The position numbers and the translations under genes were made by a program. From assembly GCF_011682075.1 (NCBI RefSeq), contig NZ_VSMK01000802.1, positions 1 through 32,990 of the forward strand: 32,990 bases of DNA, read 5' to 3'. The notes beneath the pieces are model-generated. The model saw only the letters and a program-made list of their open reading frames with translations, was not told the origin of the DNA and searched no databases. Of this stretch, positions 11,690 to 16,768 are shown piece after piece (positions within the stretch are counted from its first letter, which is position 1; each line of letters opens with the position of its first letter). Source of the DNA: Nitratidesulfovibrio liaohensis (GTDB taxonomy: Bacteria; Desulfobacterota; Desulfovibrionia; Desulfovibrionales; Desulfovibrionaceae).

Positions 11690-12235
11690 ATGAACATCGC
11701 CTTCACCTTCAAGAACTTCGAACCCTCCGACCACCTGAAGAAGTACGCCCGCCGCCGTCTTGAAAAGCTTGGCCGGTTCGTCGGCAAGTCCGCCCTGGAA
11801 ATGCAGGTGAACCTTTCCGTCGACAAGTTCCGCCACAAGGCGGAAGTGCAGATGACCGGCGACGGCTTTACGTTCTCCGCCGTCGAACAGTCGGAAGACA
11901 TGTACGCCACCATCGACCTGGTGCTGGAAAAGCTGGAATCGCAGCTGCGCAAGCAGGTCGAAAAGCAGAAGGACCGTCGCCGTTCCGTGCAGTCCGACAA
12001 GCTGGGCAAGGGCATCGACGTGTTCACCTTCGGCACCGTGGGCGAAGGCGAGGAACGGACCATCACCGGCACCGACCACTTCGCCCCCAAGCCCATGCAC
12101 GTGGATGAAGCGGCCATGCAGCTCGACCAGAGCGACAACGAGTTCCTGGTGTTCCTGAACGCCGAGGTGGAGCGCATCAACATCATCTACCGGCGTCGCA
12201 ACGGCGATTTCGGCCTTATCGATCCGGTCGTCTAG
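11690..12235 (+). CDS. hpf: Ribosome hibernation-promoting factor, long form
   Basis: Binds the small ribosomal subunit and, in the long form, drives 100S dimer formation in resting cells. The 181-residue protein has the S30AE/YfiA domain at residues 1-100 (MNIAFTFKNFEPSDHLKKYA start, then VQMTGDGFTFSAVEQSEDMYATIDLVLEKLESQL split over strands and helix). After a charged linker, a C-terminal dimerisation domain (about 125-181) ends NAEVERINIIYRRRNGDFGLID, which matches long HPF rather than the short enterobacterial HPF (about 95 aa). AGGAGG lies 6 nt before the ATG at 11690. It sits between rpoN and ptsN, as in many proteobacteria. Confidence 0.93.
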   Translation: MNIAFTFKNFEPSDHLKKYARRRLEKLGRFVGKSALEMQVNLSVDKFRHKAEVQMTGDGFTFSAVEQSEDMYATIDLVLEKLESQLRKQVEKQKDRRRSVQSDKLGKGIDVFTFGTVGEGEERTITGTDHFAPKPMHVDEAAMQLDQSDNEFLVFLNAEVERINIIYRRRNGDFGLIDPVV

Positions 12236-12244
12236 GCACCATAC

Positions 12245-12694
12245 ATGAGGCTTTCGGAGTATCTTCACGATGATCTGATCCTGCCCGAGCTCTCCGCCGG
12301 CACCAAGAAAGAGGTGCTGGCGGAACTCGTGCAGGCCGTGGTACGGCGGCATCCCGAAGTGGATGCCGCCGTTGCGCTGGGCGTGCTGCACGACCGTGAA
12401 TCGCTGGGCACCACCGGCATAGGCGACGGCGTGGCCATCCCCCACGGCAAGCTGGCAAACATCAGCGACATCGTGGTGGCCGTGGGGCGTAGCGTGACGG
12501 GCATCGACTTCGACGCGCTGGACATGAAGCCCTGCCACCTCTTTTTCCTGGTGCTGGCCCCGGAACAGGTGGCGGGCATGCACCTGCGCATCCTGGCCCA
12601 TATTTCGCGCCTGCTGAAGGACCCGCAGTTTCGCCGCGCCATGATCGACGCCCCGGACGGCAAGGCCTTCACGGCCCTCATGCGTACGACCTGA
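12245..12694 (+). CDS. ptsN: Nitrogen-type PTS EIIA protein
   Basis: Regulatory phosphocarrier of the PTS-Ntr branch, which adjusts potassium, nitrogen and envelope responses in other proteobacteria rather than importing sugar. The 149-residue protein is a single EIIA-fructose/Ntr domain. The phosphorylated histidine is H67 in GVAIPHGK, preceded by LHDRESLGTTGIGDG, and the C-terminal part HLRILAHISRLLKD is typical. The start lies 9 bp after hpf with only a weak AGG ribosome site, so coupling to hpf is likely. Downstream Man-type PTS genes offer possible phosphotransfer partners, but EI and HPr are not in this window. Confidence 0.93.
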   Translation: MRLSEYLHDDLILPELSAGTKKEVLAELVQAVVRRHPEVDAAVALGVLHDRESLGTTGIGDGVAIPHGKLANISDIVVAVGRSVTGIDFDALDMKPCHLFFLVLAPEQVAGMHLRILAHISRLLKDPQFRRAMIDAPDGKAFTALMRTT

Positions 12695-12854: not shown

Positions 12855-13871
12855 ATGCCCACCAAGGCCTCGCCACCCGATACATCGTCCGCCCCGGTGT
12901 CTGCCTCGTCTACCTCATCTGCCTCGTCTACCTCATCTGGCGCCACCGGCTCCGCAGCAACCGCCAGGGGTGCCGATGCGGGCAGCCTGGTGGCAGCCCC
13001 CGACTTTCCCGTCATCATCGTCACCGGATTGTCCGGCGCAGGCAAGAGCACGGTGCTCAACGTGCTGGAAGACCTGCGCTACTTTACCGTGGACGGCCTG
13101 CCCGCCAGCCTTGCCCCGCAGATGGTCACCATCCTGAACCGCGAGGCGCTGTCCCACTATCAGGGCCTGGTGCTGGGCATGGACCTGCGCGAGAGCAATT
13201 TCGTGCGCAATCTGGAAAAGTCGCTGGAACGGTTGCAGGGCATGGGCGTGCGCCCCGCGATGGTGTTCATAGAGGCCAACGCCGCCGTGCTCAACCGGCG
13301 CTATGCCACCACCCGCCGCCCGCACCCGCTGGAGAGCGAAGGCATGGGGCTGGAACAGGCTCTGGAGCAGGAGCGTCTGCGCCTTGCCCCGGTGCGCCAA
13401 ACCGCCGACCTCGTTGTGGACACCTCCAGCTATTCCATCCACGACCTGCGCCGGGTCATCCAGAAGAAGTGGAGTTCCATCCAGGGGCGCATCCGCTCCC
13501 TGCGCATCAATATCGTCACCTTCGGGTTCAAGTACGGCGTGCCCGCCGACGCGGATCTGGTGTTCGACCTGCGCTTTCTGCCCAATCCCTATTTCGTGCC
13601 AGATCTGCGCCCGTTGTCCGGCCTGGACGAGCCGGTGGCCAAATACGTGCTGGAAGCGGGGCACGGCGATGCCTTTCTGGCGAAGCTTCTGGACTTTCTG
13701 CACTTTCTGCTGCCCCAGTACGAGGCGGAAGGACGCTACCGCCTGACCATCGCCATTGGCTGCACCGGCGGGCGGCACCGTTCGGTCTCGGTGGCGGAGG
13801 CCCTGCTTCGCGCCTTGAAAAAATCTGATTATGCCGTATCGATAGAGCACCGCCACATGGAACTGGGTTGA
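12855..13871 (+). CDS. rapZ: RNase adapter / nucleotide-binding protein RapZ with an extra N-terminal tail
   Basis: P-loop protein; in E. coli it guides RNase E to the GlmZ small RNA and so controls GlmS and amino-sugar supply for the envelope. The 338-residue product has an N-terminal Walker [10 protein letters not shown] (58-66), the [12 protein letters not shown] region, and the RapZ C-terminal block with [19 protein letters not shown] and [11 protein letters not shown]. Normal RapZ is about 285 residues; the extra 50 at the N-terminus are Ser/Thr/Ala-rich and include two identical SASSTS units from a DNA tandem duplication. The ATG at 12855 has GAGGAG 6 nt upstream, so the tail is probably translated. 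It follows ptsN as in E. coli; an RNA role in this lineage is unproven. Confidence 0.92.
12900..12935 (+). repeat. 18-bp perfect tandem duplication inside rapZ
   Basis: The 18-base unit TCTGCCTCGTCTACCTCA is repeated exactly at 12900-12917 and 12918-12935. It keeps frame and encodes SASSTS twice in the disordered N-terminal tail of RapZ. Copy number could vary between strains by slippage. Confidence 0.9.
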
Positions 13872-14006: not shown

Positions 14007-14525
14007 ATGTCCACCACCGAACAGCAGCAAGCAGGGCAGTCCCGCAAGGGGACAGGAAACGTTGCCCAAGGCAACAGCAGCAAGCCCGGCGACGGCCAGT
14101 CCGCCCCGGAATCGCGCATCGGCGTGATTCTGGTGACCCACGCCGACTACGGCGCGGCGTTGTTGCGCGCCGCCGAATTCATCCTCGGCCCGGTGCAGGA
14201 TTGCGCCTCCATCAGCGTGGACGTCTCACTGGAAGTGGACGAGACGGTCAAACGCCTGAACGAAGCGGTGAAACGCCTGGATACCGGGCGCGGGGTGATG
14301 ATCCTTACCGACATGTTCGGCGGCACCCCCACCAATCTCAGCCTGGCCCTGCTGGGCAAGGGCAACGTGGAAGTGCTGACCGGCGTCAACCTGCCCATGC
14401 TGCTCAAGGTGTTCGGCGGGCGCGACGGCGACCTGGCCGCCCTTTCACGCGATGCGCGCGACGCTGGCACCAAGGGTATCGTGGCGGCGGGCGAACTGCT
14501 GCGCAGCCGGGTCAAGAACGGGTAG
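14007..14525 (+). CDS. PTS system mannose/sorbose-family EIIA component
   Basis: Phosphocarrier that takes phosphate from HPr and passes it to EIIB. The EIIA-Man domain begins at RIGVILVTHADYG with probable active histidine H45 and continues with TDMFGGTPTNLSLALL and VNLPMLLKVF, all typical. The start is uncertain. ATG 14007 gives 172 residues but has no good ribosome site; a GTG at 13920 in the same frame gives 201. The region before the domain is Gln/Ser/Gly-rich and looks disordered under either choice. A different-frame ATG at 13885 has the best ribosome site nearby (GAAAGGA). It follows rapZ by about 135 bp; the EIIB gene starts 4 bp after its stop. Confidence 0.85.
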   Translation: MSTTEQQQAGQSRKGTGNVAQGNSSKPGDGQSAPESRIGVILVTHADYGAALLRAAEFILGPVQDCASISVDVSLEVDETVKRLNEAVKRLDTGRGVMILTDMFGGTPTNLSLALLGKGNVEVLTGVNLPMLLKVFGGRDGDLAALSRDARDAGTKGIVAAGELLRSRVKNG

Positions 14526-14529
14526 GGTC

Positions 14530-14994
14530 ATGCTCTGGTTCCGCATAGACAACCGCCTGGTGCACGGCCAGATCATCGAGGCGTGGCTGCCCTATACGGG
14601 GGCGCGGCGCCTGCTGGTGGCCAATGACGCCCTGGCGGCGGACGACCTGCAACAGCAGATCGTCTCGCTGGCCATTCCCGGCCGGGTGGAAGTGCACTTC
14701 GTGCGGGTGGACGCACTGGCCCAGTACTGTACCGGGCGCGCGGACGACGGGCACGACACGCTCGTGCTCTTCGCCACGTGCGCAGACGCTCGCCGTGCCT
14801 TCGATGCGGGAGTGGGCATGAGCACCCTGAACATCGGCAACCTGCACTACACCCCAGGCAAGAAACAGTTGTGCGCGCATGTTTCCGTTTCGGACGATGA
14901 CGAGGCCTGCCTGCGCTTCTTCAACCGCCACTCCGTGTCCCTGGACTTTCGGTGCGTACCCAACGAACCGGTGCAGATAAAGGGGTGGTCATGA
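14530..14994 (+). CDS. PTS system mannose/sorbose-family EIIB component
   Basis: Cytoplasmic domain that accepts phosphate from EIIA and donates it to the sugar bound by EIIC/EIID. The 154-residue protein opens MLWFRIDNRLVHGQIIEAW, with active-site H12 in the family motif RLVHGQ. VLFATCADARRAFDAG and LNIGNLHYTPGKKQL are also typical of sorbose-type EIIB. TAGGG lies just before the ATG, and the gene starts 4 bp after the EIIA stop. Its stop overlaps the EIIC start as ATGA. Substrate cannot be read from the sequence; attachment to the rpoN locus suggests regulation as much as transport. Confidence 0.9.
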   Translation: MLWFRIDNRLVHGQIIEAWLPYTGARRLLVANDALAADDLQQQIVSLAIPGRVEVHFVRVDALAQYCTGRADDGHDTLVLFATCADARRAFDAGVGMSTLNIGNLHYTPGKKQLCAHVSVSDDDEACLRFFNRHSVSLDFRCVPNEPVQIKGWS

Positions 14995-15694
14995 CCGATT
15001 TCCTTCCCGTGCTCACCCTGGCGCTGCCCATCGCTTTTTTTTTGCCGTTTTTTCGCTGCTGCGCTTTTCGCTGAACCTGGGCTTTCTGGAACGCCCGCTC
15101 GCCATCGGCTTTCTGTGGGCCGTCATGACCGGCGAGTGGGGGCTTTCCATGCACATCGCCATCTTTCTTGAGCTGTTCTGGCTCGATCTGTTTCCCGCCG
15201 GTACCTACATTCCCCCCAATTCCATCATCTCCCTGCTGCTGTCCCTGAGCGTTGCCGGGCACTTCGGCCTGGAATCCGCCGGGCAGCTGGCCATTCCCGT
15301 GCTGCTCGCACTGCCCGCCGCCCTTGCCGGCGCGCATGTGGAATACCTGCACCGGCGCTGGCGCAACCAGCAATACACCGACCTGTTGCACTGGGGCAGG
15401 ATGGCGGAACACTCCGGCAAGGGCGATTCGCCCCTGTGGCGCATCATGGTGCGCTCGCTGGGCGAACTGTTTGCGCTGAACCTGGGCCTGTTTTGTGTGT
15501 GCCTGCTTGTGCTTGTGGGAACTATCGAGCTGATGTCCAACTATATCGGTCATCTTCCGGCAGTTCCCGGCATTGCGTGGGGGCATGTGTGGTTCGTGGG
15601 AGCCATGGGCGGCATGCTGGCCCTGCGCCTGCGCCGGGCCTATGTGGCCTTTGCGTTGGCCTTGCTGGCCGCGTCGGCGGCTTCGTTCATCTGA
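14991..15694 (+). CDS. PTS system mannose/sorbose-family EIIC, frame interrupted at a T9 run
   Basis: Membrane channel subunit of a Man-type PTS. Translation from the ATG at 14991 (overlapping the EIIB stop, AAGGGG upstream) gives only 27 residues before a TGA at 15072. From 15044 the -1 frame continues for 216 codons with clear EIIC character: SLLRFSLNLGFLERPLAIGF, then HIAIFLELFWLDLFPAGTY, then several membrane segments to 15694. The switch falls in nine T (15035-15043). Adding one T, or slipping back one base at T TTT TTG, restores a 234-residue protein of normal EIIC type. It is therefore a sequencing error, a phase-variable or dead allele, or a slippage-expressed gene. An ATG at 15125 would give an N-truncated 189-residue product. 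No EIID gene follows. Confidence 0.75.
15035..15043 (+). repeat. Nine-T homopolymer at the EIIC frame break
   Basis: GC followed by nine T and then GCC. In the zero frame the last codons read TTT TTG, so T TTT TTG forms a possible -1 slippery heptamer. A second run of six T (15048-15053) lies 4 bp on. Such a run is exceptional in this GC-rich window. Confidence 0.9.
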
Positions 15695-15847: not shown

Positions 15848-16768
15848 ATGGCAGCTCTTGTTCTTGGTCACATGAATCCCGATACCGACTCCATCATCGC
15901 CGCCATCGGCGTTGCCGACCTGATGACCAAGCGCGGCATCGAAGCCAAGCCCGTCGCGCAGGGTGCCTGCACCCCCGAAACCGAATTCGTCCTCGGCAAG
16001 TTCGGCCTGAAGGCCCCCGAAGTGGTGACCTCCGTGGCTGGCCAGAAGGTCATCCTGGTTGACACCACCGAGCGTGCGCAGCTGCCCGCCGACCTGTCCG
16101 ACGCCGAACTGCTCGGCGTGGTCGACCACCACAAGCTGGGCGACGTGACCACCTCCAACCCGCTGGAAATGTGGGTGTGGCCTGTGGGCTGTTCCTGCAC
16201 CGTCATCAAGGCGATGTACGACTTCTACGGCATCGAAGTGCCCAAGGCCATCGCCGGCGGCCTGCTGTGCGCCATCCTGTCCGACACCGTCATGTTCAAG
16301 TCCGTCACCTGCACCCCCGAAGACAAGAAGGCTGTCGAAGCCCTTGCCAAGATCGCGGGCGTGGCCGACGTGATGGCCCTGGGCATGGAAATGTTCAAGG
16401 TGAAGTCCGCCGTTGAAGGCGCGTCCATGAAGGACCTGGTCTTCCGCGACTACAAGGACTTCGACATGGGCGGCAAGAAGGTCGGCATCGGCCAGTTGGA
16501 AGTGGTGGACCTGTCCATCCTCGAGCCCGTGAAGGCCGGCCTGTACGAAGAAATCACCAAGGTGAAGGGCGAAGGCCGTCACTCGGTGTTCCTGCTGCTG
16601 ACCGACATCATGAAGGAAGGTTCCGAAATGCTGATCGTTTCGGACGACGCCTCCATGGTCGAAAAGGCGTTCGGCGTGAAGGCCGAAGGCAAGTCGGTGT
16701 GGCTCGACGGCGTGATGAGCCGCAAGAAGCAGGTGGTGCCCAACTTCGAAAAGGCCTTCAAGGGCTAG
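15848..16768 (+). CDS. ppaC: Manganese-dependent inorganic pyrophosphatase (family II)
   Basis: Hydrolyses pyrophosphate to phosphate. In sulphate reducers this pulls the ATP sulphurylase reaction towards APS, so the enzyme is central to energy metabolism. The 306-residue protein is a DHH/DHHA2 phosphoesterase. Metal ligands are visible in GHMNPDTDS (H8, D12, D14), VDTTE (D72) and VDHHKLGD (D93, H94, H95), and the C-terminal SRKKQ substrate motif is present near 290-294. GGAGGA lies 8 nt before the ATG at 15848, so a longer reading from upstream is not used. It has its own promoter with a Rex-type operator and a strong terminator, so it is monocistronic. Codon choice is strongly biased (AAG, GAA, CTG), fitting high expression. 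Confidence 0.96.
   Translation: MAALVLGHMNPDTDSIIAAIGVADLMTKRGIEAKPVAQGACTPETEFVLGKFGLKAPEVVTSVAGQKVILVDTTERAQLPADLSDAELLGVVDHHKLGDVTTSNPLEMWVWPVGCSCTVIKAMYDFYGIEVPKAIAGGLLCAILSDTVMFKSVTCTPEDKKAVEALAKIAGVADVMALGMEMFKVKSAVEGASMKDLVFRDYKDFDMGGKKVGIGQLEVVDLSILEPVKAGLYEEITKVKGEGRHSVFLLLTDIMKEGSEMLIVSDDASMVEKAFGVKAEGKSVWLDGVMSRKKQVVPNFEKAFKG

Follow-up and report, generated by a model that had tools for sequence, protein, structure and literature searches.

The gene for EIIC of a Man-family PTS in Nitratidesulfovibrio liaohensis lay in two reading frames that meet at a run of nine Ts (T9), and this run is probably a programmed transcriptional slippage site, at which one extra U would be added in part of the mRNA. 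A probability of roughly 0.78 is given to this reading, which was drawn from sequence comparisons. The split frames, the invariant T9, the conservation across the order, and the natural one-frame genes without T9 were seen directly. The window, meaning the whole stretch of DNA that was analysed (32,990 nucleotides), was a single contig from a 4.24-Mb draft genome (813 contigs, 86.84% complete). Nitratidesulfovibrio oxamicus NCIMB 9442, a member of the order Desulfovibrionales, and Desulfovibrio sp. A2 were the closest named relatives that were found. The genes of the region were arranged in the order hpf, ptsN, rapZ, EIIA (Man), EIIB (sorbose type), EIIC, and ppaC, with the following features.

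11690–12235, + strand: hpf, ribosome hibernation-promoting factor; start placed from the open reading frame, the search query being two codons longer upstream
12245–12694, + strand: ptsN-like EIIA (PTS_EIIA_2); profile match
12855–13871, + strand: rapZ; profile match
14007–14525, + strand: Man-family EIIA (PF03610); profile match, with the ATG start at 14007 placed by eye
14530–14994, + strand: Man/sorbose-family EIIB (PF03830); profile match
14991–15074, + strand: EIIC zero-frame N-terminal open reading frame (27 codons), its ATG overlapping the EIIB stop (ATGA)
15035–15043, + strand: candidate T9 slippage site; exactly T9 and shifted in 163/177 order loci
15044–15694, + strand: EIIC remainder in the -1 frame (216 residues and a stop); profile match, model, and conservation
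15848–16768, + strand: ppaC, manganese-dependent inorganic pyrophosphatase; downstream neighbour

The open reading frame on the 5′ side of hpf resembled rpoN by eye. One EIID was present elsewhere in the same genome, and the EIIA, EIIB, and EIID partners of EIIC were thus all found. The neighbours of EIID in a relative (L116) resembled rsmI and HPr by eye.

The zero frame of EIIC began at the ATG at 14991, passed through the run as NNT TTT TTT TTG, and ended after 27 codons at a stop at 15072–15074. The remainder of the gene, 216 codons from 15044, lay in the -1 frame and ended at the stop at 15692–15694. A reading made from the letters of the window (the sequence-only reading) had already placed the start at 14991, the zero-frame stop at 15072, the rest of the protein in the -1 frame from 15044, and the frame switch within T9, and all of these positions were confirmed exactly. 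Neither strand of the window had another run of nine T or A besides T9; 0.06 such runs were expected from shuffles, and a run of nine arose in 6 of 100 shuffles of the window. The -1 frame of the gene contained no ATG, GTG, or TTG between the upstream stop and T9, and its first start codon 3′ of the run was at 15125. A second run, T6 at 15048–15053, followed to give the sequence T9-GCCG-T6. The sequence-only reading had also pointed to this T6, which is indeed present in the window. It was not a general feature; since a T6 lay in the same place downstream in only 33 of 163 shifted relatives, it does not belong to the core signal.

The -1 frame encodes a remote PTS EIIC of the Man family. Against PF03609 (cut-off 26.3), the post-run part scored 24.1 bits and the open frame including T9 scored 27.0 bits, and the score against NCBIfam TIGR00822 was 18.8 (cut-off 339.85). 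A profile built from 32 EIIC sequences, one per genus of the family, matched the mannose EIIC chains of the PDB, with 7dyr as the best match (E 1.9e-06). The AlphaFold2 model of the post-run part had a mean pLDDT of 88.7, and its predicted fold is of the ManY-type IIC. The best 11 PDB matches of the model in Foldseek were all chains of Man-PTS entries (6k1h and 7xno by name), with E values of 3.0e-03 to 1.5e-01, none below 0.001, and TM-scores (query) of 0.41–0.60. The mannose EIIC structures 6k1h and 7dyr thus shared both the profile match and the best fold matches with the EIIC of the window, whereas the relationship was remote, with an identity of 20–21%, a Foldseek E value of 3.0e-03 at best, and a TM-score (query) of 0.53–0.55. 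The gene of the window also differed from these in being split between two frames. This EIIC was the only match of PF03609 found in its own genome, which is 86.84% complete.

The split was identical throughout the genus. All eight same-genus genomes compared, the present one included, carried T9-GCCG-T6 and the same split, and one of these was a single contig. The post-run part of EIIC was 94–98% identical within the genus, and the longest stretch free of differences among the 705 bases compared in the eight genomes was 39 bases around T9, followed by 26 bases for the next longest. Among the 32 sequences of the family, the post-run part had nine invariant columns. A pseudogene or a sequencing error would be suggested by the homopolymer itself and by a draft assembly of 813 contigs and 86.84% completeness, and the sequence-only reading had listed both a read error and a recent inactivation. 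These explanations are contradicted by the recurrence of the same split in separate assemblies of 39 genera, by the identical sequence in all eight same-genus genomes, and by the conservation of the downstream protein, and such an origin is close to excluded.

Functional data from a relative pointed the same way. Excerpts of a study of Desulfovibrio vulgaris Hildenborough (PMC10102598) describe PtsI and the putative EIIA DVU1632 as cofit with r = 0.89, with shared defects on alternative nitrogen sources. PpaC is DVU1636 in this strain, according to excerpts of PMC6470260, and we infer from this that DVU1632 is the EIIA of the operon described here. The shared phenotypes of PtsI and an EIIA indicate that the PTS is live in a relative, in which case a long-dead EIIC would be odd.

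The comparison was extended to the order. A family search with the query P0001 gave a match in 111 of 149 genomes, and a profile search matched 208 of 247 order genomes and 85 of 297 phylum genomes. Among the matches listed, 177 order loci from 176 genomes were read; these comprised the P0001 family loci (111 less L111, which was cut by a contig end and excluded), 35 further places in the family, and 32 places from five other families. Loci L009–L012 were left uncounted as, judged by length, the same contigs as in G001, G005, G004, and G002. The terms order and family in these counts are group codes of the genome collection, and the name Desulfovibrionales was carried over from named relatives.

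Exactly T9 together with the same shift was found in 163 of the 177 order loci read among the matches listed, in 39 genera and six families, with 133 loci in the own family and 30 in five others. Thirteen loci had an unshifted, one-frame EIIC; eight of these had no run of seven or more Ts, four had T8, and one (L037) had T9. The remaining locus, L150 (G264, genus g5), is counted in the 177, is placed in neither class, and was omitted from the tree. With L150 omitted, T9 and the shift occurred together in 163 loci, T9 without the shift in one, the shift without T9 in none, and neither in 12 (Fisher p 1e-17, which is a guide only as the species are related). The 12 order genes without T9, L150 aside, were all unshifted with an in-frame ATG, GTG, or TTG, so that the orthologues lacking T9 were those that need no recoding. 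The same was true of the outgroup from the rest of the phylum, where 28 of 28 loci, a non-random choice of mostly better-scoring places from 75 listed, carried an in-frame ATG, GTG, or TTG and lacked any run of seven or more Ts.

The organisation around the run was equally constant. Of the 163 shifted loci, 162 had a zero-frame start codon (ATG in 156, otherwise GTG or TTG) within 22 codons 5′ of the run, and the one exception, L130, was cut by a contig end. A zero-frame stop followed within 14 codons 3′ of the run in 150 of the 163. Two EIIC copies, L129 and L130, both with T9, were present in one genome of family f3 (G186; listed contamination 7). Two of the features by which transcriptional slippage is recognised, an A/T homopolymer of at least about nine at the frame transition and the same organisation of open reading frames with the same run in non-identical homologues, were found. 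The same split with the same nine Ts in about nine in ten of the relatives read across the order indicates that the gene is not broken and is probably read by slippage. The recoding option of the sequence-only reading, by the polymerase or by -1 slippage of the ribosome, is therefore strongly supported, and the result that it named as an argument against conserved recoding, orthologues with no T-run, was not borne out in 163 of 177 loci, which kept T9.

A run of nine Ts is prone to replication slippage. The run could therefore act as a phase-variable switch, with its length changing between cells and EIIC turned on and off, and L150 does have a run of T10. However, no shifted EIIC with a run length other than nine was found among the 177 order loci from 176 genomes, although on-state lengths would be expected often from such a switch. 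The frame-joining length occurred once, in L150, and this gene had a second frame break downstream at a G7 run, which may reflect gene decay or, in this single-contig assembly, read errors at homopolymers. Phase variation, another option of the sequence-only reading, is thus very improbable.

In a FastTree tree of 204 rows, in which 63 of 199 inner branches were weak and some rows were long, the order alone required at least nine changes of state, and inclusion of the outgroup raised this to 10. These changes indicate that the recoding trick is not needed everywhere, and the one-frame genes suggest that some species do without it. One old gain followed by several losses of the shift would suit this tree with its unshifted outgroup. 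L037, which keeps T9 in frame, shows that the run can persist without being needed.

The column, wobble, and folding statistics were obtained from the 128 shifted loci that were gathered first, out of 163. All nine columns of the run were 100% T in these loci, while the 30 columns upstream carried 0.05–1.02 bits each. The first T of the run was the third base of a GCT (94), GGT (37), AGT (24), or TGT (8) codon in the 163 loci. Any base is allowed at this third position in Ala and Gly codons, and T or C in those for Ser (AGY) and Cys, but only T was found there; the usage of T at third positions in the same genes was 13% for Ala and Gly and 27% for AGY. The resulting probability product for a constant first T was 10^-34.9 for one gene per genus in 39 genera, treated as independent, which they are not. 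The base 3′ of the run was G in 161 and A in 2 of the 163 loci. Nine is a run length reported for efficient slippage of bacterial RNA polymerase in excerpts of PMC5009743, and runs in coding sequence are avoided at length nine in many genomes, according to the main text of PMC1088944.

The main rival explanation is a programmed -1 shift of the ribosome on U UUU UUG (or U UUU UUU), which would give full-length EIIC from an unchanged mRNA. The phase of the run fitted the slippery heptamer X XXY YYZ in the zero frame in all 163 shifted genes, including the following G or A, and longer U runs may also aid slipping of the ribosome. Such a shift would yield a product of the same length as slippage and fits three of the one-frame genes described below. 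Six Ts would suffice for the heptamer U UUU UUG, yet all nine are conserved, including the first T at a third codon position, and none of the 163 shifted genes among the 177 loci had another run length. Stimulatory elements were likewise sought. By locus, the mean z of downstream folding was -0.14 (50 nt) and -0.10 (80 nt), compared with -0.11 and -0.11 (50 nt) and 0.03 (80 nt) for controls, and no clear strong structure was found downstream in the 128 loci against shuffles or controls, folding being computed without pseudoknots. When averaged by genus (39), folding in the 80 nt downstream was slightly stronger than in shuffles (mean z -0.36, sd 0.74) and in the control (0.08, sd 0.71), which is a weak hint of a stimulator. 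Shine-Dalgarno-like 4-mers occurred at -22 to -4 in 10 of 128 loci, compared with 0 to 18 loci of the same 128 at five other positions, and no enrichment upstream of the run was found in the 128 loci. Ribosomal frameshifting is regarded as unlikely, and transcriptional slippage on T9 is preferred.

The length of the N-terminus was compared in four genera, in each of which a one-frame gene was set beside two to four chosen shifted relatives of its genus. In L037 and L112, the N-terminal length was as expected for the gain of one nucleotide or a -1 ribosomal shift and not for the loss of two nucleotides; the comparison of L037 with L028 holds if the first GTG of L028 is the start. L135 fitted the gain of one nucleotide or the -1 ribosomal shift with three of four relatives, and the fourth, L148, had a longer N-terminus. 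L060 fitted the loss of two nucleotides from the start codon (16 codons) and the gain of one nucleotide only by eye from a shared Trp. The N-terminal lengths thus speak against loss of two bases in the mRNA in three of the one-frame genes, and for it in L060 when the count begins at the start codon.

Internal initiation was also considered, in which translation of the long frame would begin at a start codon of its own, with the short open reading frame encoding a separate leader peptide. Within 90 nt before the conserved core, an ATG in the EIIC frame was present in 8 of the 163 shifted genes and any ATG, GTG, or TTG in 43, so that some species may use other starts. The gene of the window has no such codon before the run, a protein started at 15125 would lack the invariant residues R7 and P18, and the nine invariant Ts would be left unexplained. 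Internal initiation as the general explanation is therefore highly improbable. The shifted loci L021, L022, L036, and L044 of genus g8 had an EIIC-frame ATG 27 nt 5′ of the conserved core, which is a possible second start.

In the proposed mechanism, RNA polymerase would slip on T9 and add one U in a fraction of the transcripts. The added U would join the short N-terminal frame to the long downstream frame and give full-length EIIC, while unslipped transcripts would yield only a peptide of about 27 residues. The sole EIIC found in the genome would thus be made by way of the slip, and its amount would be held below that of EIIA and EIIB, which are encoded just upstream. The action of RNA polymerase, the single added U, its frequency, and the role in dosage are what we infer from the comparisons above. 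In reiterative transcription, slippage on U tracts can vary with UTP supply. The EIIC site could therefore act as a UTP-linked nucleotide sensor, tying the assembly of the permease to the energy or nitrogen status of sulfate reducers, a suggestion that is tentative and rather unlikely.

A whole-genome search listed T9 at 17 places, two of which were one T10 run. A search for T14 gave none. The T10 run (L182/L183, C46), followed by A6, was the only run longer than nine among these places. Four other T9 runs of the genome lay in long open stretches, L180 (C13), L181 (C22), L188 (C143), and L190 (C189). Pfam matches in these stretches were RimP-like for L190 and Sdh_cyt for L180, with none for L181 and L188. 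Slippage at these four runs, if they are inside genes, would truncate the products.

A gene of this kind can pass for a pseudogene or a sequencing error in annotation, which can make the PTS of these bacteria look incomplete. The one-frame genes and the unshifted outgroup are natural controls, by which both the mechanism and its purpose are directly testable.

Among known systems, prfB uses a +1 ribosomal frameshift near the 5′ end of a chromosomal gene to make its full-length product in many bacteria, and this shift takes place at an in-frame stop codon with a Shine-Dalgarno-like stimulator. The EIIC gene resembles prfB in that recoding near the 5′ end would be needed for the full-length product, whereas the prfB event is ribosomal and occurs at a stop codon. 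Closer parallels are found in transcriptional slippage. In dnaX of Thermus thermophilus, nine identical bases in the coding sequence give slipped mRNA and a second product, and in mxiE of Shigella the slip gives a longer product, as proposed for EIIC (excerpts of PMC1088944 and PMC5009743). In dnaX, spa33, and mxiA the slip gives a shorter product, unlike EIIC, and dnaX, mxiE, spa33, and mxiA are other genes of other bacteria, with no transporter among them, as described in the same excerpts (PMC1088944, PMC5009743). The tssM1 gene of Citrobacter rodentium and the T6SS-3 tssM gene of Yersinia pseudotuberculosis are stop-cut chromosomal genes restored by homopolymer slippage, with short and full-length products both made, according to excerpts of PMC4256274. 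These are secretion genes with eleven As before the missing C-terminal domain (PMC4256274), whereas EIIC is a PTS gene with nine Ts near its 5′ end that are conserved across the order.

The 9A/9T candidates from a scan of 108 bacterial genomes, described in the main text of PMC1088944, are the same kind of site as the T9 of EIIC. The seven conserved cases of that scan were six IS elements and mapW of S. aureus, with nine As, so that conserved transcriptional slippage in ordinary chromosomal genes has rarely been reported; no PTS or Desulfo- term was found in this main text. Term searches of the accessible parts of PMC3711429 and PMC5009743 gave no PTS or Desulfovibrio case, and among the papers listed from the open-licence literature none was found to describe slippage in a PTS gene or recoding of this kind in Desulfovibrio. 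The kind of mechanism is therefore known from dnaX, mxiE, and tssM, while what seems new, within the literature that could be searched, is the gene concerned, its apparent dependence on the slip, and the fixation of nine Ts across the order.
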